DNA from: Jaapia argillacea MUCL 33604
Lineage: Eukaryota > Basidiomycota > Agaricomycetes > Jaapiales > Jaapiaceae
Reading direction: 5' to 3'
Length of the DNA stretch: 64,000 nucleotides
Assembly: GCA_000697665.1 (NCBI GenBank)
Contig: KL197710.1
Location: 967,406 to 1,031,405, forward strand
Shown here: positions 40,205 through 58,562 of the stretch, piece after piece
Layout: the number at the start of each line of letters is the position of its first letter
Numbering within the stretch: position 1 is the stretch's first letter
Made by a program: the position numbers and the translations under genes
Notes under the pieces: generated by a model
Database searches by the model: none
What the model was told of the DNA's origin: nothing
What the model saw: the letters and a program-made list of their open reading frames with translations, nothing else

Positions 40205-41803
40205 ATGAGGCAATCAGCTGGGGGAACGGCCTCCGGGAATCTTAAGCGCTCGTTGTCTATGTCAAATGGATCCATCCCTTCTTTACCAAAGCTCTCTGGC
40301 GACATTATCTTGGAAGTCTTCACCCACCGATCACTCAGATTCGAGGGTGCACCGCAAAATGAAGAATTTGGAGATAATGACCGCTTGGCCGAACTAGGAG
40401 AGCGTGTTTTGGTCGCAGCAGTCACCTTTTGCTTGTTCAGTAAAAGACCTATGTTGAGCGCAAACGAGATAATAGTATGTAGATTATTGTTGCTCCATGT
40501 AATCCAGCCTTCTCATCCCGTTCCTTGTTCCAGAGTCAAAGAGACTCGCTTCTGTCCGAGAACATGGACGGCTGGATTTCAAACTATCGGCTGAGGGAAA
40601 AGCTTCGCTGCTCTCATGATGCTCTGCCATCCATCAATAGTCCCAAGGTATGTCCGTGCCATCGTTCTTCGACTTGGATAACGGTTGCTGACTCGTACCA
40701 GGAAACTCGTCTCCTATTCACTTCATACGTCGGAGCGGTATTTGCACAGAGTGGTTTTCGCGTCGTACAGGATTGGATCAGTAGGCTTGTCGACCCTGAA
40801 TCTGATCCCCCTGCCCTGCCAGAGCCAGAGGTGCAAATGCCCCTCCCAATGCCGCCCAAGAGATTCAAGAGTGAATCTCTCTATGCTATGCCCATATCGC
40901 CTCCCCCAGCCCCCCCGCCGCCTGTCGCCGCTCCTCCCCCTCCCCCTCTCCCTCCCACTCCAGTGACCCCTATGCCATCCATCGTTCCCTCTGTCGGGAT
41001 GTCATACTTGCAGATATTCAATCAGACTGCCAATCAGCGTAGGGTAGCCGTCGATTACCCATCTGAATTCGCCGGCCCTCCCCATGCTGGAATGTGGAAC
41101 GTGAAATGTATCGGTATGTGACCCTTCCAAATGCTTCCGATACTACCCAGCTCAAATATATAACATCAATCAGTCAACGGAGTGGAGCGGGGTCGAGGAA
41201 CAGGCCAGAGCAAACAAATCGCGAAAGAGGAGGCCGCTCGACAAGCCTTCTATAGCATGGGATGGGCTCAATACCATCCAAACCTCAACGGATCACAACG
41301 ATTCTCGGATTCACCAGTTCCGTCTCCAATGAAAGTCGAACCCAACGAACCTGCAGTACCTCCACCCCCACCCCCATCTCATCCACCACCTCCGCAACCC
41401 TCACTCCCACCCCCTCCCCTTCCCAATCCTCTCGCCCCAGCGCAACCTAGCATGGCGTTTCTACCCCTCTTCAATCAGACTGCCAACCAACGTCGACATA
41501 CGGTCGACTACGTTGCTGAATTTGCAGGGCCGCCTCATGCTGGTAGTTGGCACGTACGGTGCATTGGTGGGAAAATTTTCCTCCCACATGATTAGTCGAG
41601 TTGCTGATGGGTCTCACGAACGTTATTCAACAGTTGATGGCATTGAAAAAGGCAAGGGGGTGGGAGTGAGCAAGCAAGTAGCCAAGGAAGATGCTGCCCG
41701 ACAAGCCTACTACACAATGGGCTGGGCACCACGTATGTTCTTCCGTCTCTCTTCGGCCCCCTCCTAACACGAACCGTCATTCATGAATTCAGGAAGCTAC
41801 TGA
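40205..41803 (+). CDS. RNase III-like domain with two dsRBDs, 432 aa
   Basis: Double-stranded RNA-binding protein, probably not a nuclease. Six exons (40205-40474, 40534-40647, 40702-41113, 41174-41566, 41634-41732, 41793-41803) sum to 1299 bases. The N-terminal part is RNase III-like: DIILEVFTHRSLRFEGAPQN, then NDRLAELGERVLVAAVT where the family has NERLEFLGDxVL, then NYRLREKLRC and LFTSYVGAVFAQSGF. One catalytic Glu is Ala and the signature Asp is Glu. Two dsRBDs follow, each preceded by a Pro-rich linker. Both start IFNQTANQRR or LFNQTANQRR, share EFAGPPHAGxW and end AKExAARQAxYxMGWA. Their near identity shows internal duplication. The layout resembles Agaricomycete proteins kin to mitochondrial mL44. 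Confidence 0.88.
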
Positions 41804-42520
41804 CTCACAAATAAAACCAATACCTCAAATCCAAGTTCATTTGACCTTCTTCAAACAATTCACAAAGTTGTGCCAATGCACTATCATTATTGCTGTGTTT
41901 CGTCCGCGTTGAGCAGGCCGAGAGGAATCGCTCCTGCCATGATGCTCCCCGCTGTGTGTCCGTCGATGACGTGAATGCGGAGCCTGGTGTTGGATGGCAG
42001 CATCTCGATGAATTTCATCCTTTTCCCGTTCATTCCCTTCTAGATGCATTTGCGTGGTGCGTACAACTTGGGCCCCAATAGCTTTGGTTGTACGCACTGC
42101 GTTTGTGCTGTTTCTTTCACCCTTCTTGATATGATGTTTTTCACCTTTGGGCCTTTTCTGTCTGCTTGCTTTATGCCGACGAAACACAGCGACCACGGTA
42201 GTCCATTGGCTTTTTTTTGTGAATTGTTTGGGGTTGGTCACCTTTTCCATTTCAGATTGTTGTCGTTCGCAAACGTAAGTCAAATAACGCTTCATGCCCC
42301 GTTCAATATTTTTAGGCTTGGACCTCATTCCTTTCAGCACTTAGTCAACCTGTGCGTTGTCGTCTGTTTGCTTAGCGTTCATCAATAACAGGACCCTCGC
42401 ATTTCCGGTCTATTACAGTCCTTTGAGTTACGACCCTCATGATTACGACCAACCCCTCCCGAGCTGTAATGATTCACGACACACACACGATGTATATAGG
42501 TAGATAACATGTCCACTCCT
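41804..42520. other. Convergent intergenic region with long unexplained minus frame
   Basis: A 167-codon minus frame (42340-41837) is Lys/Arg/His-rich and has no recognisable domain. A second minus frame inside it encodes LPSNTRLRIHVIDGHTAGSI followed by MAGAIPLGLLNADETQQ, preceded by a possible acceptor (TCTAG). Plus frames also overlap. No phase-consistent gene could be built, so coding remains open. Confidence 0.35.
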
Positions 42521-44367: not shown

Positions 44368-46395
44368 TCAGTCGCTGATGAGGAGTTCAGGCAATGGGAA
44401 CACACCTGTGCTGGGCCGACCACCATCCCCTCGACCTGCAAGACTGGTTTCCTGGTAGTGACGAGGAGTAAGAGAGGTCAGCGCAGCCTTCGTGGATTGT
44501 TCCGCATTCCCATCATCCAACAACGACAATTGCGCTAACTCGGAGCGAGGTATGATTTGTTCGGCAATGACACGGCCAATGTCCGAGCTATGGGGTCGAG
44601 GGGTTCTCTGGGTAGGATTGGTTGGACGAACTCGAGGCGTACTCTCTCCAACAGAAGCCGCCCTCGGTCGCAGAGGGGGATGTGCCAATGGTGTACGCTC
44701 TTTTCGGTCTAATTGGGATGGTGAAGTCTGTGGTCTGGGATTGTTCGCAGTGGCAGAGTGGGAGCGGGATCGGGAATGCAAGTTCCAAAGTCCTAGCTTC
44801 TTTCTATGGTAAGGAACCGGCGACGTACTCTCTTTAGGTGAGCGATAGTTTGGGGATAGCGGCGAGATAGGCAGTGGCATCCGGGGCGGCTCCATCTTCT
44901 GGACAGAAGCTTTCAACGCCACCTTCTTTCGGAAGATGTTCACCACTCCGACGTTCTTCCCCGTACAAGGACGAAGCAGACCAGGAGAGCAAGCAAAACG
45001 CAAAGGAGTCAGAGTTTTCTCGCCGGGAATAATCTTGCCCGTCCCTTCCTTCCTGCGATCCATAACCATATACTCGAACTTCCACTCGAGTTTCAGTGGA
45101 GTCACCTGGGGGTGGCGAGATGGAAGCGCCTCGGTGCCGTGGGCGGAGTAGACGCCGTTCGACTTGATACATAGTGATGCAAAGCGAGAGACATAGTCTC
45201 GCGATTCCTCCTGATTGACGGTGACGCGGCGGATGAGGGGAGGGCTATCCAGGGCGGAATGATGGAATGCAAAAGCATCCCGCTTAACGGGCAGAAAGTC
45301 GACGGACCCAACACAATCCTCATAGTCTTCTGCGACACGCCTCAGAGTAACAAGATCCTGGCTTTGATCCTTGAAGATGCGATTCTCTTGCAAGAACCGA
45401 GAGGCTGAGGGAGGCGTATATCCGGTGAGCCTGAAAGCAGGGTAGACGGGACGGAAACCTTCTTGATCGATCCAGACTTCGATGGTAATCTCTTTGAGCC
45501 AGGATAGACCGTCGGGCAAGGATGGAAATCTCGAGTCATGGTTCGCGATGGAAGTTGCAACGGTGGATGAACGAGAGAACGTCTTGCTATGGGTTAATCT
45601 CGACAAGGCCGAGCCAGAGGAACTGGAGGACCGAGACGACCGAAGGGAAGGTGAAGCGGGTCCTGGAAAGCCTCGAGGTCCACCAAAGGGATTGCGGAAA
45701 TAAGGAAGAAAAGTTTCATCCCCAGAAGAACGGGAGCCTGAGGGTACATCAGAGTCAAGGATCCGGTGACGATCGTGGCCGTTAGGATTGTGGATAGCAG
45801 AGCGTCTCTTGAGATACCGAGGATCTACTCCAGATATCCTAGAGATGGTTGACTCTTCCCTCGATAAGACCGATGGAGGTGAAGGGGCGAAAACAGCAGG
45901 AGACAATGTTGATGCAGAGTCCAACGGATACATGAGAATCTCTTGAGTATCTGCCCCGGCATCAGTCTGTAGGACCTCTTGGGGCATTCTTAGGTGACTT
46001 GTAGAGCTGCCTTCATCAAAAAACCCGTCAGGGAGGATGTGAAAGGTTGGCAACGGCATGGCGTTATTCTGAGACAAACGGCGCAGAGGAGAACCGCGAT
46101 CCATGGTGACCAGGTAGGGTAGATGTCTCCCAGTCCGAGCGCTGGCCTTTGAGGATGGAACGGTGGAATCAGGGAGGACAGCTGGAGGGGAAGGTAAAGG
46201 GCAATGCTGAGAAAACTTAGAGTTCAGTGGGGTTTCGCCACTCGACACAGCTTGCACGCCAAAGGTGTCAGCGCTGTGTATCGACTCTGAACTGCGGGTC
46301 GCGGTAAATGCATTTTGAAGGAGCCACAAGTCGTCCGCAGAGGATGGGCGGGTATGCATGCTGTAGCGCTCGCGGTCAGACGGTGTCGCGGTCAT
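44368..46395 (-). CDS. Gene X: uncharacterised Ser-rich protein, 675 aa
   Basis: No named family is recognised. It is a single long exon from ATG 46395. Residues 1-280 are Ser/Pro-rich and disordered. A folded-looking middle (about 290-520) begins LKEITIEVWIDQEGFRPVYP and includes FRLTGYTPPSASRFLQENRI and LEWKFEYMVMDRRKEGTGKI. It ends LLRPCTGKNVGVVNIFRKKV. The C-terminal ~150 residues are again basic and Ser/Pro-rich. Similar middle domains occur in other Agaricomycete hypothetical proteins as far as I recall, without function. Its first ~140 codons reappear as a damaged fragment at 51,222-51,700 because of the local tandem duplication. Confidence 0.8.
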   Translation of the reverse strand: MTATPSDRERYSMHTRPSSADDLWLLQNAFTATRSSESIHSADTFGVQAVSSGETPLNSKFSQHCPLPSPPAVLPDSTVPSSKASARTGRHLPYLVTMDRGSPLRRLSQNNAMPLPTFHILPDGFFDEGSSTSHLRMPQEVLQTDAGADTQEILMYPLDSASTLSPAVFAPSPPSVLSREESTISRISGVDPRYLKRRSAIHNPNGHDRHRILDSDVPSGSRSSGDETFLPYFRNPFGGPRGFPGPASPSLRSSRSSSSSGSALSRLTHSKTFSRSSTVATSIANHDSRFPSLPDGLSWLKEITIEVWIDQEGFRPVYPAFRLTGYTPPSASRFLQENRIFKDQSQDLVTLRRVAEDYEDCVGSVDFLPVKRDAFAFHHSALDSPPLIRRVTVNQEESRDYVSRFASLCIKSNGVYSAHGTEALPSRHPQVTPLKLEWKFEYMVMDRRKEGTGKIIPGEKTLTPLRFACSPGLLRPCTGKNVGVVNIFRKKVALKASVQKMEPPRMPLPISPLSPNYRSPKESTSPVPYHRKKLGLWNLHSRSRSHSATANNPRPQTSPSQLDRKERTPLAHPPLRPRAASVGESTPRVRPTNPTQRTPRPHSSDIGRVIAEQIIPRSELAQLSLLDDGNAEQSTKAALTSLTPRHYQETSLAGRGDGGRPSTGVFPLPELLISD

Positions 46396-46533
46396 TCGAT
46401 AAGTACAAAACCCTGGATCCGATGGATCTTACTATCCAGGTAGTTGGATGCAGCGACTCCCAGGACAGATCTAGAGGGGGTAGCAGACAAGTATTCGAAA
46501 CTGATACAGAAGTAATGTATACATTGCTATCCA

Positions 46534-49500
46534 TTAGGTTGCTTGGCGAACGTCGCCCATGATCTGAACAAGAACTCTCTGCTGCGCTCGAACCCACCTC
46601 ATAATGTGTTCTCTCTCCTTTTTCTCCGTAAGGAAGAGAGGAGCGTTTAGTGCACCTGGTAAAAAGCCATGAGTTAGTCGAGTAGATGAGAAAGTCAAGG
46701 ACAACATACCGAGATAGGCCAGGCGGATGTCATCCAAGATCCGTCCCAAATTTTTCTCCAACTTAACTTGTACATCATCGCATAGCTTTCCCCTCAGGTC
46801 GGACGCAACACCATGGACGAAACACTCGAAAAGGTGCCCACAACTCTCCCGAACGTATTGTTCGTTAGCGCTCTGTGGAACGGGATTAGGTGGATGGCTG
46901 AACAGGACGAGGTCTACCACCAACCTTCATCCTCTGATACATCCCAGGTCCAGATTCCTTACCCACTGTCTTGTAGTGCGGTTTGAGGGTCTCCTTGATC
47001 CTGGATTTGAAGGAGTGGCTAATGTCTCTGAACAAAGAATGAGTTCTATTACTCAGACGACATCTTCCATACGTGTAATCACCTTTGACGCAATGAAACA
47101 TCCTTCCTGACCTTTATTGCACGCGACACCATCTTTTCCTTCACAGAAACACTGGATAGCGCGCGCTCGATGGACTCTTGCCGATGCGGTGGGACGTCCT
47201 TCTCTAGGGAACTGTCTAGGAGCCCTGAGAGATAAGAGGAGGTGACCGGACACTGACCTAGCTCTTTCATGGCTTCTACAATAGCTCCCAGAAGATCCTG
47301 ATAAGACCCATAAACTTTAGGTATAAAAAAATCTAAACTTGTAGTATACCTCCTCGAGTTGTGTGAAGATCGCTGGGATACGCACGGTGAATACCTGGAA
47401 CCATCTACGGGCGGATCAGTTTTTAAGAATCAGCCGAAAACCCAGGACGCACTCCGGAGTGATATTGGGATAGACATGTTTAATTAGATCGCGATTGAGA
47501 TCGATAGTTCCGTGCTCTCCTTGACGTCTCATACACGCTGCGTATGCTCTCCAATGATTGGCTTTAGCGGTGTCGTTGAATACTTGCCCGCATCTGTCTC
47601 GAGCCTGGTCCGAGATTAGAAAAGGCCCGATGATGAACGCCAAGAAGACTGTACATCTATCACTTGAGGTTTGAGATGGCTGTTGACAAATTCTCCAAGT
47701 AACTGCTCAATCTCGGACATACGTCCGCGGACAATCCTTCGATTGTCCTGAGACACAATCAATATCTAATCAAGACCACCGCCACACTTACTCACCTCGC
47801 TTTGCTTCTTGAGGGTAATTTTGGCCTTTTTCTCGTAAGGTCCCAGATCACAAGGCTGCCTGCTGTCATCGTCAAAATGTTGTCGGGCTTGATCGAATAG
47901 CTCATTTGTGTCTGTGAGTACACGAGTTATGTGTCGGACATTTCTCGTCGTCCCATAGGTAACAATGTGTTCCCTCAAATCTGGAATCTGAGTCTGAAAC
48001 CGGTAGTCTTAGCTGAAGTCTGATTCAAGGAGAATCCGACATACTTCTTGCTCTTGAGCAAAGATAAGGGGTTCCCCAAACCTCTGCAACTCCAAGTAAT
48101 CATGTGTGGCAACACAAAAGATTGGGAGGCGAGGGAGACGCTGAGGAAGGTTAGCAAAGCCTACACCGAGAAGAGGTAGAGGAACGGTTACATCAATGGA
48201 TAAGGCCCCACATATCTCGCCAAGAATATGTTCGAAGCCGATGACTACGCGCTTGGATCTAATTTTCTAGAGTGGTTTCGGCGTCTGAGCCTTAAAGTGA
48301 CTGAAAGTGTAGTGATACACTTACAGCAAGTAGAGACTTCAGTTGCTTGGATTGATTTATATATTGTGGCCCCAGAGCGTCGAGTCGCACGTCAATCTGG
48401 AGATTATGGTGAGCACTTCCATGGACTGAAGGCCCGCCATACGCACACCTTCGATTTGCTTCTTGAGTGCGAGAGCAGCCTTCGATCTGGTCGTCTTCAT
48501 GGATCGAAGTTTCTTTTCGAGATTTTGTTTCTCAGCTTTGTACCGATCAACAGTTGTGACTTGCTAGGCTGAGGAGTGAGCAATTTCGAATGAAGGCACT
48601 GCGGGGGCTGCACCTCGTGGAGACCGCGTATCACATTTTCATCGCCGTAAGGCATGTATTGATCAACTTCATGGAAATCAACTGGCATCTTGATGAGAAA
48701 ATATGAGATAGTTAACTAAACAAGAATGTGGATCTTACATCGGCCATCGTGAAAACCAAGGAAAGGGAACAGTCGGCGAGTCTCCCGTCGGAGAAAAGGC
48801 GCTTGATACTGAAGGGCCAGTAAGACCAGCCAACGATTGCGGGTGCGTCTTCACTCACAGCGTCTTCAATTTCTCCAGAGCATCCTAACAGCGACCCCTT
48901 GTGAGACTCGATGAAATTGTTCAGATTTCCAAATGAAACTCACAAGGTTGTCGATTGCCCTCTTTTGCTCCACCACTTTCCGAGACTGTCATGGCGGTTT
49001 TGAGGATTCTGAGACATTCCGGTACTCACCTAAGAGAAGTGCATCAGACTTTACTAAGTACTCTGTCGCCAAGTTGTTTCTGTGAACACAACACTCGTCA
49101 CCATGTTATCCAAGGTGTACAGAGGCTCTAACCTGACAGAGTTAGCATCCCCACTTCCGGGTACATCCACCAACGTAACGCCGGTAGACAAAGCTGGAAA
49201 TTTACCAAATACTTGGATCCTGGGTGAATCTGAGAACTGATTTTCAAACGCAGAGCTCAACTAAAACCATACTTCTTCGCTAAAGACCATAACTTGGAAA
49301 GAGTTGGCCGTGGCTCTTTAAGACGAAAACATACTCTCTACCGTGGGATCCCCAGTAGTGTCGGTTCGGTTGCCGGCCATTCGGTGATATAGCTGGTATC
49401 CAGCATAAGATCAGTTTAAAGGAGGCTTCATATAAAGTACTTACCATCTTCTGCAATTCCGAGGGGTCCGGCGAACTGAGATATTCCGTCTGACCAAGGA

Positions 49501-50419
49501 CATCCTTGAAGCCTCCTTGTGACAAGATTTGATCAACATCTAATGATCTAATTGACTGTTCTGTGACACTAGAGTTCCTGAAGGTTAGTATTACGGTCGG
49601 CTTAAAACCTGAGACGCACTGGGGACAAACCTGGCAGGTACACAAAGCGTCAGCATGGGAAATCACAGAGGTTAGTGTGGGATGCTCACAGCTTTCCACC
49701 GTGCGTCCACTTCCATCAAGAATTTTCTATCTTCTTGTGACCCATCTAAGCTTTGCGAACTAGAAACATATGCTTAGTTGGAATGCATACAATCAGTTGT
49801 CAAATGCATACAAATCAGCCTGCAAAGCAAGTACTTCCTGAGATTGTGCAAAGTAAGAACAGGAAGGGCTGCTAGTCAAATGGCAGTAGTTCACCTCTTT
49901 CCATTCCTCTTCCTCTCGGAAAGTAATGATAGCCTCATAGTGCTGGATATCTTTGAAGGAAAACTCGGTGGGCACTGATGTACAAGCGCGACCCTGAGCC
50001 ACCCGCATAGTTCAGTCATGATACCGGATCAAGACGAAGGATGGATACCCACAGACGAGGATGTCGGTGCAACCGAAGCATCAAGCATTGCGTTGAGGAG
50101 GCTACTTTTGCCGCAACCAGTTTGTCCGACGATAGCGATTTGACATGGCTCTGGCAGGTTGGCTATCTCTTCCATATTCTCGTTCCATACCTTCCTTCGC
50201 TCGTCGCTCAGCGAAGCCTTTGCTTTGGATAGGAGCCCAGATAGCTCAGGAAAGGTGCTAGCCAAGCCTTTGACGCGATCAACTAGGTCGACATCATCAA
50301 TGTCGGTCAACTCGCTGGGCTGAAAGCAAATGGGATCGAGGATGGTGAGCTTAGAAATGCATGAATGGGGCAAACAATCCTCACCGCGTCAGAATGAGCA
50401 TCGGACATGGGTTCGTCCA
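46534..50419 (-). CDS. SLIP-GC-like dynamin-superfamily GTPase, copy 1
   Basis: Large multi-exon GTPase of the nuclear GTPase SLIP-GC (NUGGC) type, a family widely spread in mushroom genomes. Exon 1 starts at ATG 50419 (MDEPMSDAHSDA). Exon 2 carries CQIAIVGQTGCGKSSLLNAM (G1 P-loop). The next has GRACTSVPTEFSFKDI, where the Thr is the G2 switch. VTLVDVPGSGDANSV (G3, DxPG) lies at about 49,140-49,195, and a YLVKSDALLL G4-like motif at about 49,035-49,065. A charged helical C-terminus ends near 46,534 (KKEREHIMRWVRAQQ). There are at least twelve short introns; I did not resolve every exon, so intactness is not proven. It is the older-position partner of the copy at 51.9-55.8 kb. Confidence 0.78.
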
Positions 50420-50775
50420 TAGTTCAGGATAGAAGTCGAGAGCCTCTAGAAATCTAGCAAGGAAGGAGGAGGAGGCGGGGAAACGACGAACAAGGACGAG
50501 ATGGAAAGCCGTTTCATCTCATTAATCAGAACGAATTACAGCCCCGCGCCGCAGGCATGGATCTCAGATCCATCCGGTCCATCAAGAAGACAGTCAAAAG
50601 GCAGTAACTGTGAAAGGGAAGGTCAAACACAAGGACAAGACTGTCTTCATCTGTCTTCATCCGTTCGGCGTTCATCGAGCGGGGCTCCAAATTAGGTAAA
50701 AGATGGTCATTTGTCGACCTCAGGGTGCATGCAGAATCCAGATATTCTCTATTAGGCAAACGAACATCCGCTTGG

Positions 50776-51221
50776 TCAACTGTACACATTCGCCCGCACC
50801 TCTTTCTTCGTTACCAAAGGTCGATTCTTTAGCAGACAATGATCGCCAACAGAGTTGAATGCTCTCCATTCCTTGCCTGGAGCCCAAAGCGTCCAAGTGA
50901 GGAGTGAGGAATGCCGGGCGTTTAGGAATGGAGCACAGTAGACACGTTCCCAGTTGTCCGAGTCGACCGAGTATCGGGGCTTGTGTACGAAGGAGAAGGG
51001 GTGACCTAGGAAGTCGAGTCCACGTCGACCTAAAGCAAGGGCCATCAGAAGATTGATTTCAAGCTAAAATAGATCCACACGTAACTATAATGGGTTGGTT
51101 CTTCCTTATGAAGTCATCCAAGCCCTGCGGAACAACTCTTGTGAACAAGTCAAGGGATAAGGTAGCTACATAAATCTCTCCTTCCTGTGCGCCTGAGATG
51201 CCAATATCCCCAACCAAAGAT
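50776..51221 (-). pseudogene. ALG9 3' fragment (duplication remnant)
   Basis: The sequence closely follows the last two exons of ALG9 (56,146-56,540): PRYSVDSDNWERVYCAPFLN, HSSLLTWTLWAPGKEW and KNRPLVTKKEV are recognisable. It then skips about 540 bp of the parent gene (jump at about 51,137). It resumes with the exon-5 stretch around the HKEERF region and stops at the junction at 51,221. It lacks the whole 5' half and any promoter of its own, so it is a dead fragment. Confidence 0.88.
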
Positions 51222-51700
51222 GGCCTCGTGGGGCATCCCTGGTTGACTTGTCGAGCTTCCGCCATCAAATAACTCGTCAGGGAGGATGTTGAAGGTGGGC
51301 AACGGCACCGCATCATTCTGAGACAAACAGCAGAGAGGAGAGCCACGATCCATGGAGACTACTTAGGTAGGGCAGATGTTGCCCAGTCTCGGCGCTGGCC
51401 TTTGAGGATGGAACGTGAGCCTCGGAGGACAACCATGAGTGAGGAAGGTATGGGGCGATTTCGAGAAAACTTGGAGATCCGCTGGTTTTCGCCACTCGAC
51501 ACAACTTGCACGCCAAAAGGGTCAGCGTTGTGTATCGGCTCTGAACCGCGGGTCGCGGCAACGGCGTCGCGAAGGAGCCATGGGTCATTCACAGAGGATG
51601 GACAGGGATGCATAGCAATCAAGTTACAGTGTCGCTCGGTGGGTAGGGTTGAAGCTGGTTGAAGCCCCGACTCGGAGTAGCTGGACCGTGTCACGGTCAT
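51222..51700 (-). pseudogene. Gene X 5' fragment (duplication remnant)
   Basis: Matches the first ~140 codons of gene X (46,395-45,973). The shared pieces are MTVTRSS versus MTATPSD, WLLRDAVAATRGSEPIHNAD versus WLLQNAFTATRSSESIHSAD, and FGVQVVSSGE versus FGVQAVSSGE. The frame is then disrupted: later pieces (GSPLCCLSQNDAVPLPTFNI) are in another frame. It is followed directly by the ALG9 fragment. It is not expected to make a functional protein, though gene X's promoter may have been copied with it. Confidence 0.85.
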
Positions 51701-51863
51701 TCAACACGAAGTCTGCCACGAAGTCATGCCAGTTAGATTTCGATGCACCGACACATTACAGAGAGCAGGACAAATACACAGAAGTAATCAACAAGTAGTA
51801 GTAGGAATATACTGGTACAGAAGTAATTTATATATCGACACCCATGACTGGGAGCCAAAAGCA

Positions 51864-54800
51864 TTAGCGTCGATTCAAAGTTTCTTGAGGAAGCTCATTC
51901 AATAACTGAGCGAGAACTGTCTGCTGTTCTCTAACCCATATCATAATCTTCTCTCTCTCCTTCTTCTCCGTATGGAAGTGAGTAGCCTTTAGTGCACCTG
52001 GTAAAAAGCCATGGATTAGTGGAATAGATGAGAAAGCCAGTGGACAACGATTGGACGAACTGAGATAGGCCTGGCAAATGTCATTCAGGATCCGTTTCAA
52101 AAATTTCTCTAACTTGACTTGTACATCATCGCATAGCTTTCCCCTCAAGTCGGACGAAGCGCCTCGAACGGAGCACTCAAAAAGGTGCCCACAGCTCTCC
52201 CGAGCGTATCGTTCGTTGGCGTTCTGTATAGCGGAATGAGACGGAGGGGCTGGACAAGAAGAGGGATACTACTGACCTTCATCCTCTGGTACATCCCAGG
52301 GCCGGATTCCTTACCCACCGTCTTGTAGTGCGGTTTGAGGGTCTCCTTAATCCTCGCTTTGAATGAGTGGCTGATGTCCCTGAACAAATCATGAGTTCTA
52401 TCCCTCACACACGATGCCTGTCGTGTGTGTGCAATCACCTTTGACGCAATGAAATATCCTTTCTGATCTTCCTTGCACACCCCTTCACCTTTTCATTCGT
52501 AAATACGCTGCGAAGCGCGCGCTGGATGGAGTCTTGCCGATGGGGCGGGGCATTCTTCCCTGAGAAATTGTCTGGGAATCCTGAGGGTCGAGATTAGGTG
52601 AACGGACACTGACCTAGCTCTTTGATGGCTTCTACAATAGCTCCCATAAGATCCTGACAAACAGAATAAGCTTCAGGTATGAAGAAGGCCAAGGTGATAG
52701 TATACCTCCTCGATAAGTTGCGTTAAGATCGCTGGGATACGTTTGGTGAACACATGGAACCACCTGAGGGCGGGTCAATTTTCAGTATTTAAAGGAAAGT
52801 CTGGGACGCACTCCTCATAGATCTTGGGATAAATGTGTTTGATAAGATCATCATTGAGATCGATAGTTCCGTGCTCTCCCTGACGTCTCATACATGCTGC
52901 GTATGCTCTCCAATGGTTATCCTTAGCGATGTCGTTGAATACTTTCTTGCAGCTGTCTCGAGCCTGATCTGAGAGTTAGGAAACGCCTAACGACGAACGC
53001 CAAGGAGGCCTTACTTCTATTACTTGAGGGGTGAGATGGCTGGTGACAAAGCGTCCAATTTGCCGCTCAACCTCGGCGGTACGTTCGCGAAGCATCGTTT
53101 GACCCTCCTAGGACACAATCAATATCAAATCAAGTCGATCACCGTACTCTTACTCACCTGACCCAACTTCTTGAGGTTACGCTTGAGCGTTTTCTCGACA
53201 GATCCCAAATCGACAAGCTCCCTGCTGTTATCGTCAAAATGTTGACAGACTTGGTCGAATAGCCCATTGGTGTCAGTGAGTACACGCGTTATATGTTGGA
53301 GATTTCTCGCAGCCCCATAGGCTTCAATATGTTCCCTCAGATTTGGAATCTGAGTCTGAAACCTGTGGTCTTAGCTGAGGTCTGATTCAAGGAAAATCTC
53401 ACGTACTCCTTGCTCGTCAGTGAATATAACGGGTTCGTTAGACCTCTGCAACTCCAAGTAGTCATGTGTGCCAACGCAAAAAATTTGGAGGGGAGGGAGA
53501 TGCTGCGCAATGTTAGCAAAGCCTGGACCCAGACGAGGCAGAGAACGGGTTGGTTACATCGATGGACAAGGCACCGCATATTTCGCCAAGAATGTGTTCG
53601 AAGCCAATGACTACACGCTTAGATCTGATTTTCTAGAGCGGTTTCAGCATAGGGAGGCTTTAAGTGGAATGCTCCACTCACAGCAAGTAGGGACTTCAGC
53701 TGCTTGCATTGATGTACGTATTGTGGCACCAAGAGGTCGAGTCGTGCGTTAATCTATGGAGATACCATGATGAGGACTTCCATGCACTGCAGCTTCGCTA
53801 TACACACGTCTTTGATTCGCTTCTTGAGTTCAAGCGCAGCCTTCGTTGTGTTCTTCCTCATCGCTCGAAGCTTCTTTTCACAACTTTGCTTCTCAGCTTT
53901 GTAGCGATCAACGGTTGTGATTTGCTAGGTTGAGAAGTGAGCAATTCTGAATAAAGTCACTGCGGGGGCCTGTACCTCGTGAAGACACCGTATCGTGTTT
54001 TCGTCGCCGTAAGGTGTGTATTGATCGACTTCATGGAAATCAACCGGTGTCTTGATGAGAAAATATGAGATAGACGGCTAAAGAAGAAGGTAGATCTTAC
54101 GTCGGCCATAGTGAAGACCAAAGACAGGGAAGAGTCAGCGAGTCTCCCGTCGGAGAAAAGGCGCTTGATGCTGAATGGCCAATAAGAACAGATAATGACG
54201 GGGGTTACACCTTCACTCACAGCATCTTCAATTTCTCCAGAGCGTCCTGGCGGTGACTACTTCGTGAGTCTCGATCAGATTGTCCAGATTTTCAACTTAA
54301 ACTCACGAGGTTGTCGATTGCCCTCTTTTGCTCCACCACTTGCCGAGACTGTCAAAGCGGTATCCAGAATTCTGAGGCCTTCTTGAGCTCACCTAAGATA
54401 AGCGCATCAGACTTTACTAAGTACTCAGTCGCCACATTGTTTCTGCGAACAAAAATTGCTCGTCACCATGTTAATCAAAATGAAGCAGAGGCTCTAACCT
54501 GACAGAGTTGGCATCCCCACTTCCGGGTACATCCACCAATGTAACACCAGTAGACAAAGCCGGAAATTTACCGAACACTTGGATCCTGTGTGAGGTTGAG
54601 ATATAATCTTGATAAGTAGAGCTCGAATAAACGCCGTACTTCTTCGCTAAAGACCACGACTTGGAAAGGGTTAGTCATGGCCCTGTCAAAGGAAAACACA
54701 TGTTCTACCGAAGGATCCCCAGTAACGTCGGCTCCGTTGCCGGTCATTCGCTGGTACAACTGATGTCCACCATACAATCAGTGTAAAGGGTGCTTCAAGT

Positions 54801-55787
54801 TGAAGCACCTACCATTTTCTGCAGTTCCAATGGGTCCGATGAACTGATGTATTCCTCCTGACCAAGGATACCCTTGAGGCCTTCTTGCGACAAAATTTGA
54901 TCAACATCTAACGATTCCAGCGACTCTTCTGTGACACTGGGGGCGCTCAATGTTAGCATTATGGCGTCGGCTGAACACCCGTAACTCACTGCGGACAAAC
55001 CTAACGGGAATACAAGGCATCAGATGGGGAATCGCCGAGGTAAACGTGGGATTCTCACAGCTTTCAACCGCGCGCCCAGTTCCATTAAGGATTTGCTATC
55101 GTGTTGTGACCCATCCGAGCTTAGAGAACTAGGAATATGTGCTTAGTCGGGTGAGATATGTTCAGGGTCGAAGGCATACAAATCAGCGTGCAAAGCAAGC
55201 AATTCCTGGGATTTTGCCAAGTAAGAATGTGAAGCGCTGCGGGGTTAAAGGACAGAGGTTCACCGCTTTACATTCCTCCACATCTCGGAAATGTATGATG
55301 GCCTCAAAGTGCGGGATATCTTTGAAGGAGAACTCGGTGGGCACTGACGTACATGCACGACCCTGAGCCACTCGCATAATTCAGGCTCGATAGCAGACCA
55401 AGACAAAGGAGGGATACCCACAGAGGAAGACGCCGGCGCAACCGGAGCATCAAGAATTGCGTTCAACAAGCTGCTTTTGCCGCAACCAGTTTGTCCAACG
55501 ATGGCGATTTGACATGGCTCCGGCGGCTTGACGATCTCCTCCAGATTCTCCTTCCATATCTTCCTTCGCTCTTCGCTCAAGGAAACCTTTGGTTGGTCTA
55601 GGAGACCGAATAGCTTGGCAACGTTGTTGACAAAGTTTCTAGTGCGATCATCGAAGTCATCAACAATGGCGGTCAACTCGCTAGGCTGAAAGCAAACGCG
55701 GGGTCGGGACAGTGAGCTGAGAAACACATGAATGGTACAAACAATACTCACCGCGTCGGATTCAGTGTCGGGCATGGGTTCGTCCAT
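51864..55787 (-). CDS. SLIP-GC-like dynamin-superfamily GTPase, copy 2
   Basis: Tandem paralogue of the gene at 46.5-50.4 kb with the same exon order. It starts at ATG 55787 (MDEPMPDTESDA). The P-loop CQIAIVGQTGCGKSSLLNAI, the switch segment GRACTSVPTEFSFKDIPHFE, VTLVDVPGSGDANSV (about 54,495-54,555) and a YLVKSDALIL G4-like motif are all kept. The C-terminus (GKLCDDVQVKLEKFLKRILN ... KKEREKIMIWVREQQ) extends a few residues beyond copy 1. Changes are spread along the gene and include many conservative substitutions, suggesting selection on both copies. Not every exon was resolved by hand. Function in fungi is unknown; the human relative is nuclear. Confidence 0.78.
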
Positions 55788-56145
55788 AACTACGGCGGGT
55801 CAACGCAAAAACCGGAAGGCGAGAGAACCTCTCAAAAGGTAGCAAGAAAAGAACTGGACACAGGGAAACAGGTCAAGAGATGAATGAGAGGCCCATTTCA
55901 TCTCTTGTTCACGACGAATTACAACTCCGCGCGCCACCCCCAGGGATCTCAGATCCATCCAGCCCGATCATGACAAAAGGCAAAAGGTTCATATCTGCAA
56001 AAAGGAACAATCAAGGTGAAACGCAAGAAAACGGCTCTTTATCAGTTCGTTGGAGCGGGGCTCGAAAGATAGGCAAGGAATGGTCACTTCTCGACCTCAA
56101 GGAGCACGCAGATCTTCTCTATTAGGCAAACCAACATCTGCTTTG

Positions 56146-58562
56146 TTAATTGTACACATTAGCCTGCTTTACCAGTAACTCCACCTCTTTCTTCGTTACC
56201 AAAGGTCGATTCTTTAGCAGACAATAATCGCCAAAGGAGTTTAATGCTCTCCATTCTTTGCCAGGAGCCCAGAGCGTCCGAGTGAGGAGCGAGGAATGTC
56301 GGGCGTCTAGGAATGGGGCACAGTAGACGCGTTCCCAGTTGTCCGAGTCGACCGAGTATCGGGGCTCGTGCACGGAAGAGACGGGGTGATCTGGGAAGTC
56401 GAGGTCAAGGAGGTAATGACATTTGTTCACATCGACCTGAAGAAAGGGCGTTAACAAAATGATTTCAAACTGAAACAGATACGCACGTAATGGGTTGGTT
56501 CTTCCTTGTTCAAGTCATTCAAGCCCTGCGGAACAACTCTTGTGCCCCGTCTCCACCACAATCCGCTCCCTCTGCCCTTGCCTTCCCAGAAATGCCCAGG
56601 CAACAAACCCTCGAATTCGCTCTTCACAAACTCGACTCTCACACCATCTGGAACAAGATAATGCCCAGGGAATCGATACCACTCCTTTCCCAAGCATAAT
56701 GTCAACCCGAATTCCTTGATAGGCGACAAGTCGATGCGCGGGAGCTCCTCTTCTGTCACGTGTGGTGGAGGAGTTGGGAGGTAGCCAGTAACATTGAGAA
56801 GACGAGGCATTTCAACTGAAGTGAGGGAGTAGGTGACCGAGAGGGGTGCGTGATAATAATGCCAAAGAGCCATGATCCGAGAGATCGAAAGGACCACAGC
56901 AGCGCAGACTACGGATGAAGTCGCCGTTCGGAAGATCGATGTCCGAGAAGCCTGCAAGCAACTTCAGCATTGGTAACCTTCAAATTCAAGGGAAATATTT
57001 ACCTGGTAAGGCGACTTAGTGATCTTGATAAACACAGTCTCCAACCAGCCTCTCATCAGATATAACGCCACAGCGGCATTGAAACAAATCAAGGGATAAG
57101 CTGGGTACATGAATCTCTCCTCCTTGTGCGCCTGAGATGTCAATATCCCCAACCAAAGATATAAAGGAGCCAGTCTCAACGCCAAAACCGTGAACGGCGA
57201 GCTCTGCTCTGGACTTGATTTGTAATACCCGAGTCGTTTGCGGTCCACCAGGTAGGTGATACCGAGAGCAGGGAGGGAGATCAGGGAGATGGGGAAGATG
57301 ATGTTGAAGTTGAGGAGGAGGTTTAGGATATAGAAATACCAGGGCTCGGTGCCATAGAGGTCTGGACCTCGCGAAGACCCCCCGAAGATGTTATACCGGA
57401 CGATGTTCCAGGGTACGATGGATAGTCTGCCATAAGCCAAACTGTCAACCCCAACGACATAGACCTGATGGGATTTATCATGAGGAGGCACTTCAGATGA
57501 ACTTAAACGATAACCCACAAAAAGGAGGGAGGACACGACGCCCGACGCGAAGAGACGGAGCCATCTCTTGGATAGCCATGATGAGTAAGTGCCGGAAGGG
57601 ACATGATCGCCACTATAAACGAATAACTCCTCAAACACAAACGGTATTGCGATCGCCAAAGCGAAGGGCCATCCCAGGATTGCTCCCGCAGCGAAGCACA
57701 CGGTAGTGAACAGGGTCCTATTACCGTGGTTTTCGCTGGTAGGTTCCATTGCGTACGAGAACGCGTACATGATCGCGTACATCGCAAACGACGATGGTAG
57801 GAAAGCTGAGAGAAATTGAGACATCCGGCGGGGATTCAAGATGGAAGATATGCTTACCTGTGGACGCATTCCACATACCAGCACTGAAAAAAAGCATAAA
57901 GAACATATATCGACCGACCCTCCGATTGACCTTTTCCGTCACAGACCGGTAGAATTTTGCTTCGCAGAACGTGCAAATAAACGCCAGGAATATTCGGACG
58001 GCGAAGAAGGACATTCGCTACGAGCAAGGCTTCAGTGCAAATCCATCGAAATCGCCATTACAACTTACCTTGTCTACAGCTAGCCACGAGGGAATTCGGG
58101 CAGGCAAAACGTGCAGAAGGATGTAAGCCCAACTCCGTATGGCATACACTGGTGAGACCTCCCAAGTCTGGAAACCATATCCCTTGTCCAAGTAGTGGAG
58201 AGGCTCCCAGAAATTATACACTAGAATATTGTATTTTCGTGAGATGGGAGCGTGAAGGGATGTACTCCACGCGAAAGAAGACGCACCTTCGTCACAATCT
58301 TGTATGTTGGAATACATCGCGGCACTCACACGAACAAGAAGGAGCAACCGAATGGCCATAGAGAAGCTCGGAGTCCATGCTGGCTTTGCCGTTCTATATC
58401 CAAGGTTTGCCAACGAGAACAAGAATAGAAGAGATTAGAGATTTACTTGCGAACTTGGTCGTGCAGCATAACTGGTTCCTTCAACTTCACAGGCTTAGCT
58501 GGTGAAGGCTCGGCATTTTGTAGCGGTCTCCTGAAACGGAGATTCTGCACGTTTGCAGACAT
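56146..58562 (-). CDS. ALG9: ALG9 alpha-1,2-mannosyltransferase, 697 aa
   Basis: ER multispan enzyme adding dolichol-phosphate-mannose-derived alpha-1,2 mannoses to lipid-linked oligosaccharide for N-glycosylation. Seven exons (58562-58447, 58393-58287, 58220-58069, 58017-57858, 57805-57003, 56951-56487, 56436-56146) sum to 2094 bases. The first luminal loop carries the catalytic acidic motif DCDEVYNFWEPLHYLDKGYG, followed by FQTWEVSPVYAIRSWAYILL. Many hydrophobic helices follow. The family signature SQAHKEERFMYPAYPLICFN lies in exon 5. A soluble-looking C-terminal part includes YRFPGHYLVPDGVRVEFVKS. The position of HKEERF separates it from the SMP3 and ALG12 families. The 3' ~1 kb was duplicated leftwards. 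Confidence 0.95.

Follow-up and report, generated by a model that had tools for sequence, protein, structure and literature searches.

Between positions 44,368 and 58,562 of a 64,000-nucleotide stretch of the genome of the basidiomycete Jaapia argillacea MUCL 33604 (contig KL197710.1, positions 967,406 to 1,031,405; the whole stretch is called the window below), two GTPase genes of similar sequence are accompanied by a whole and a broken copy of an ALG9 mannosyltransferase gene and by a whole and a broken copy of a second neighbour, gene X. How did this arrangement arise, and are both GTPase genes maintained? A sequence-only reading of the window had proposed that one tandem duplication copied the GTPase whole, leaving head and tail fragments of its neighbours, and that the extra GTPase is being kept. 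Our analysis leads to a closely similar answer: very probably, a single old tandem duplication took place, purifying selection has preserved both GTPase genes ever since and the internal fragments were stillborn.

A probable single head-to-tail duplication

In order to define the duplicated unit, the whole window was compared with itself by blastn. Three matches were obtained, all on the same strand: 46,564-51,143 with 51,906-56,544 (78.6%, E 0.0), 45,975-46,359 with 51,224-51,613 (79.1%, E 9.2e-90) and 51,144-51,221 with 57,083-57,160 (89.7%, E 5.5e-23). They are collinear and form one head-to-tail tandem diagonal with a single internal junction. The unit is 5,248 bp long in copy 1 (45,975-51,222) and 5,937 bp long in copy 2 (51,224-57,160), which is the diagonal of 5.3-5.9 kb that had been predicted for a self dot-plot. 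The order on the minus strand, ALG9, GTPase 2, gene X head, ALG9 tail, GTPase 1 and gene X, is also the one that had been claimed. The breakpoints lie inside gene X at about 45,975 and inside ALG9 at about 57,160, so that the proposed positions, 45,973 and 57,160, were right to within a few bases. The sequence flanking the unit is not repeated. Judging from these alignments, a single head-to-tail duplication with breakpoints in gene X and ALG9, as the sequence-only reading had it, most likely accounts for every aligned piece.

In the course of events that we propose, a segment running from inside ALG9 through the entire GTPase gene, including the intergenic DNA on either side of it, and into the head of gene X would have been copied once. 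This geometry would leave the outer ALG9 and gene X with one whole copy each, and would provide the GTPase with a complete second copy carrying its own upstream region. The two fragments lying between the GTPase genes would have been stillborn and would then have decayed, both GTPase genes being held afterwards by purifying selection. The two outer genes had been described as having escaped destruction. Both are indeed open, but any tandem duplication with intragenic breakpoints leaves the outer genes whole, and this was no lucky escape. Microhomology at the junction is slight or absent, from which we infer that the duplication arose by replication or end joining. The event is old (synonymous divergence dS about 0.36) and of an ordinary kind, and it leaves the general view of gene duplication unchanged. 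It resembles known tandem duplications with breakpoints in flanking genes in its head-to-tail unit, whole outer genes, truncated internal pieces and complete central gene; nothing essential differs, and here the dead pieces are still recognisable despite the age.

A second copy can also be produced by faulty assembly, for example when two haplotypes are joined in one contig. The DNA divergence between the two copies is 21%, and 27% in the introns, both lie within one contig with a gene-fragment junction between them, and the flanks are unrepeated; such an artefact is next to impossible here. A search of the genome (43.7 Mb, 95 contigs) revealed no third close copy, its three matches being the two in the window and a distant one on contig C7, with 47% identity over 36 residues.

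Two complete GTPase genes

The two GTPase copies were aligned and their exons modelled jointly by dynamic programming, scoring aligned codons and common splice sites. The model was rerun with relaxed acceptor and donor penalties, this version being fitted after the first model had been seen. The refined model comprises 29 exons, 28 introns at matching places and 747 codon pairs, with no stop or frameshift in either copy. Introns are short and dense here, as would be expected of a basidiomycete fungus. The last exon was modelled to 46,609 in copy 1 and to 51,951 in copy 2, and the open frames continue to stops at 46,534 and 51,864. Only two gaps, each of 3 bases, occur over 2,247 exon columns, against 17 gaps of 1, 2, 4 or 9 bases (11 of them of 1 base) over 1,227 aligned intron columns. 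As modelled, both GTPase genes are complete, which agrees with the earlier claim of a complete second copy.

A lesion in copy 2 had been suspected when the first joint model required a non-GT donor in that copy and a 7-base microexon. It was rejected because the relaxed penalties gave a common phase-0 intron and a 20-base exon reading (L/S)WSLAK, which has a counterpart, WPLIR, in two paralogues described below (L034 and L036).

We then compared the two proteins with Pfam, with a cut-off of 27 bits for both families concerned. Under the refined model, Dynamin_N (PF00350) scores 60.7 bits in copy 1 and 57.7 bits in copy 2, and DUF7605 (PF24564) scores 34.3 and 28.0 bits; under the earlier model DUF7605 reached 19.7 bits in copy 2, below the cut-off. 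Both are thus predicted to be dynamin-superfamily proteins, with Dynamin_N followed by DUF7605. These Pfam matches, like the paralogues, support the exon model with evidence independent of the pair itself. The G1 motif of GTPases has the form GxxxxGK[S/T], the G3 motif DxxG and the G4 motif [N/T]KxD. The sequence-only reading held that G1, G2, G3 and a G4-like motif are kept in both copies. The G1 P-loop GQTGCGKSS and G3 DVPG are present in both; the G4-like site departs from the canonical form, as discussed below. Both proteins would probably be active GTPases.

Purifying selection on both copies

Over the 747 codons, dS is 0.356 and the nonsynonymous divergence dN is 0.137, giving a dN/dS ratio of 0.384, which differs from 1 with twice the log-likelihood difference at 60.4. 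A second codon model gave 0.39, with a grid interval of 0.35-0.45 in steps of 0.05. Synonymous divergence equals that of the introns, where 334 of 1,227 aligned bases differ (0.272; Jukes-Cantor (JC) distance 0.338), and the fitted neutral distance of the GTPases is 0.35 (0.30-0.42). If one copy had been neutral since its birth, a pairwise dN/dS of at least about 0.5 would be expected. The observed ratio is below 0.5, and both copies would therefore have been constrained for most of the time since the duplication. There are 169 amino-acid differences between the copies: the paralogues assign 10 of them to copy 1 and 7 to copy 2, and comparison of a further 23 with the paralogues gave no polarity. 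As far as they can be polarised, the changes thus appear evenly spread over the two copies. These data suggest that both GTPases are retained by purifying selection, as had been supposed for the extra copy. The case rests on the integrity of the reading frames and on a dN/dS below 0.5, not on identity.

The internal fragments

The gene X head is separated from the outer gene by a JC distance of 0.243, with a fitted neutral distance of 0.38 and a dN/dS of 0.56 (0.35-0.90) over 129 codons. A deletion in copy 1 has removed 538 bp of the coding sequence of ALG9 (56,545-57,082) and splits the ALG9 tail there into two pieces, the first of which contains an in-frame stop; there are further gaps besides one of 1 base. 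In two pieces of the tail pooled, 30 of 294 bases differ (JC 0.110, standard error 0.020). The fitted neutral distance of the tail is 0.17 (0.10-0.28), and its dN/dS is 0.47 (0.25-0.95) over 113 codons, one having been dropped for the stop. Such ratios are what dead pieces compared with conserved genes would give.

The fragments had been said to have decayed while the GTPases did not. The stop, the frameshifting gaps and the deletions bear this out, but no part of the unit has diverged less than the ALG9 tail. Along the unit, the JC distance is 0.338 in the introns and 0.359 upstream of the GTPases, and it falls to the values given above in the gene X head and the ALG9 tail. Because identity is higher in the dead tail (about 90%) than between the coding sequences of the GTPases (84%), raw identity is no guide to maintenance. 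Selection on the ALG9 tail, suspected from this high similarity, was rejected: 16 of its codon differences change the amino acid and 12 are silent (intron-edge, stop and post-stop codons included), an in-frame stop is present and the interval of dN/dS extends from 0.25 to 0.95. The low divergence arises in part because the partner of the tail is a conserved gene. A low rate of change at this place, gene conversion by ALG9, or a second ALG9 copy that was complete at first and truncated late could also lie behind it. With its stillborn neighbour fragments and common introns serving as internal yardsticks for a kept gene, the locus is a clean example of its kind.

Alternative histories

Several observations weigh against a single duplication followed by maintenance of both GTPases. 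A piece dead since the duplication is expected to have diverged by at least half of the intron distance, that is 0.169, and the ALG9 tail lies below this value at 0.110; its fitted neutral distance of 0.17 is also below the 0.35 of the GTPases. The comparison of dN/dS that the sequence-only reading had called for gave low values for the GTPases (0.38-0.39), but those of the fragments (0.47 and 0.56) are not clearly apart from them. Several modelled splice sites are weak, in both GTPase copies, and since the gene model was picked partly by its coding score, the dN/dS derived from it is biased low by construction. Finally, the site at the place expected for G4 reads TMAD in both copies, not the canonical [N/T]KxD. 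This lowers the certainty of an ordinary guanine specificity, not the profile match.

The small divergence of the ALG9 tail would be explained if the original duplication had been larger and had included both ALG9 and gene X in full, the remains of gene X having been fused to the ALG9 tail by a deletion at a later time, so that the fragments died late. The sharp rise in divergence just past the stop codon of the tail, from 0.10 to 0.285 differences per site, points the same way. This history, however, needs one more event, and divergence is not reduced in this way in the head of gene X, whose fitted neutral distance is 0.38. Moreover, the dN/dS of the ALG9 tail is that of a dead piece compared with a conserved gene, and the deficit would also follow from conversion by ALG9 or from slow local change. 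We consider a larger duplication unlikely, and favour the single duplication with stillborn fragments.

The weak splice sites, together with the non-GT donor of the first model in copy 2, could also mean that one GTPase is a pseudogene of merely intact look. The refined model is free of lesions in both copies, dN/dS is below 0.5 and both proteins score above the DUF7605 cut-off, all of which argues against it. Neutral decay was also simulated under three settings of 40 runs each, a run being counted if 740 or more codons survived without a lesion. This length was kept in 0 of 40 runs when both copies were neutral, in 0 of 40 when one was neutral throughout and the other frozen, and in 1 of 40 when one copy evolved neutrally over the final quarter of the period, the other 39 failing. 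The first two settings yielded just short chains (means of 9 and 210 codons), not long lesion-rich ones. A pseudogene is very improbable, and we retain purifying selection on both copies.

Upstream regions and possible roles of the two copies

The upstream regions, which reach roughly from the stop of ALG9 to the start codon of the GTPase, align over 333 bases; 95 of these differ between the copies, and there are 11 gap runs. Their JC distance of 0.359 matches the neutral rate seen in the introns (0.338). No conserved promoter block was found at the resolution of this alignment of 333 bases. With upstream sequences that have diverged as fast as neutral DNA, the expression of the two GTPases may have split, and we infer that divergent expression is a reasonable explanation for the retention of both. 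A division of roles is a bolder idea and a very improbable one: the two proteins, constrained in sequence but with freely diverged upstream regions, would form a regulator-effector or hetero-oligomer pair with a lineage-specific function, for example in nonself response. If true, the duplication would have founded a two-component dynamin-like system.

An insertion was suspected in the spacer at 51,614-51,905, which aligns poorly. In a search of the genome this spacer matched only itself, so that a repeated element is not supported.

Relatives of the GTPases

Eight loci of the genome (L033-L040) were compared with the two GTPases as candidate paralogues. At a threshold of E ≤ 1e-3, three of them match (L033, L034 and L036); L037, L038 and L040 match weakly (E 0.05-0.77), and among the eight loci compared no match was obtained with L035 and L039. 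The paralogues, whose alignment covers the G domain, are located at C47:59.9 kb, C47:69.3 kb and C1:3.015 Mb. In the matches listed, they are 24-46% identical to the GTPases of the window, a 14-residue stretch at the P-loop excepted. L033 (C47:56,500-64,500) and L034 (C47:65,500-74,000) are GTPases of the same family located about 9.4 kb apart, and are possibly another tandem pair. Searching the genome with DUF7605 returned one exon, at C1:3.018 Mb, and missed the copies of the window because their exons are too short.

Among solved structures, the best sequence match is the bacterial dynamin-like protein 5owv (E 1.8e-5). It covers residues 227-320 of an early model of copy 2, only a part of the G domain, and 5owv is not a close relative. 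The style of the G domain may also resemble that of the vertebrate nuclear GTPase SLIP-GC (NUGGC), a likeness that serves as a lead only. A literature search with the term 'DUF7605' found no study, and no title among the literature matches listed announces a study of such a GTPase family; the works naming 'nuclear GTPase SLIP-GC' are, by their titles, fish studies. The locus draws attention to this family of GTPases combining Dynamin_N and DUF7605, on which these literature searches yielded no study.

Annotated features and other observations

The coordinates of the features of the duplicated locus are collected in Table 1. On its longest exon frame (56,964-57,938), the outer ALG9 matches PF03901 (Glyco_transf_22) with an E value of 1.1e-44. 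No Pfam family was matched by the outer gene X.

Table 1. Features of the duplicated locus, in positions of the window.
Feature	Position	Strand	Basis
Full gene X (outer copy)	44368..46395	-	single open frame, 675 aa, ATG at 46,395, stop ending at 44,368
GTPase copy 1, Dynamin_N + DUF7605	46534..50420	-	29-exon joint model, lesion-free
Upstream region of GTPase 1, duplicated along with the gene	50421..50780	-	alignment with GTPase 2 upstream region
ALG9 tail fragment (dead)	50774..51222	-	two pieces, in-frame stop, 1-base gap
Duplication junction, gene X head/ALG9 tail	51222..51224		no more than 1-2 shared bases, as judged by eye
Gene X head fragment (dead)	51224..51613	-	80 of 385 aligned bases differ; frameshifting gaps of 1 and 4 bases
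GTPase copy 2, Dynamin_N + DUF7605	51864..55787	-	29-exon joint model, lesion-free
Full ALG9 mannosyltransferase gene (outer copy)	56146..58562	-	open spliced model, 6 exons, 712 aa

Elsewhere in the genome, 12 of the 46 Dynamin_N matches listed fall within about 95 kb of contig C7 (1,111,243-1,206,574; loci L011, L013, L015 and L016 among others). They are P-loop matches in open frames of 214-558 aa. One of these frames, at 1462-2403 of L013, was tested and belongs to the AIG1 family of GTPases (43.8 bits against a cut-off of 27), and the stretch would seem to be a large cluster of AIG1-like genes.

Outside the duplicated unit, blastn detected two further repeats in the window. Positions 41,017-41,102 and 41,470-41,555 form a direct repeat with 73% identity, whose translation presumably resembles two double-stranded-RNA-binding motifs in a row. 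Positions 41,852-41,927 and 42,155-42,230 form an inverted repeat of 76 bp with 75% identity.

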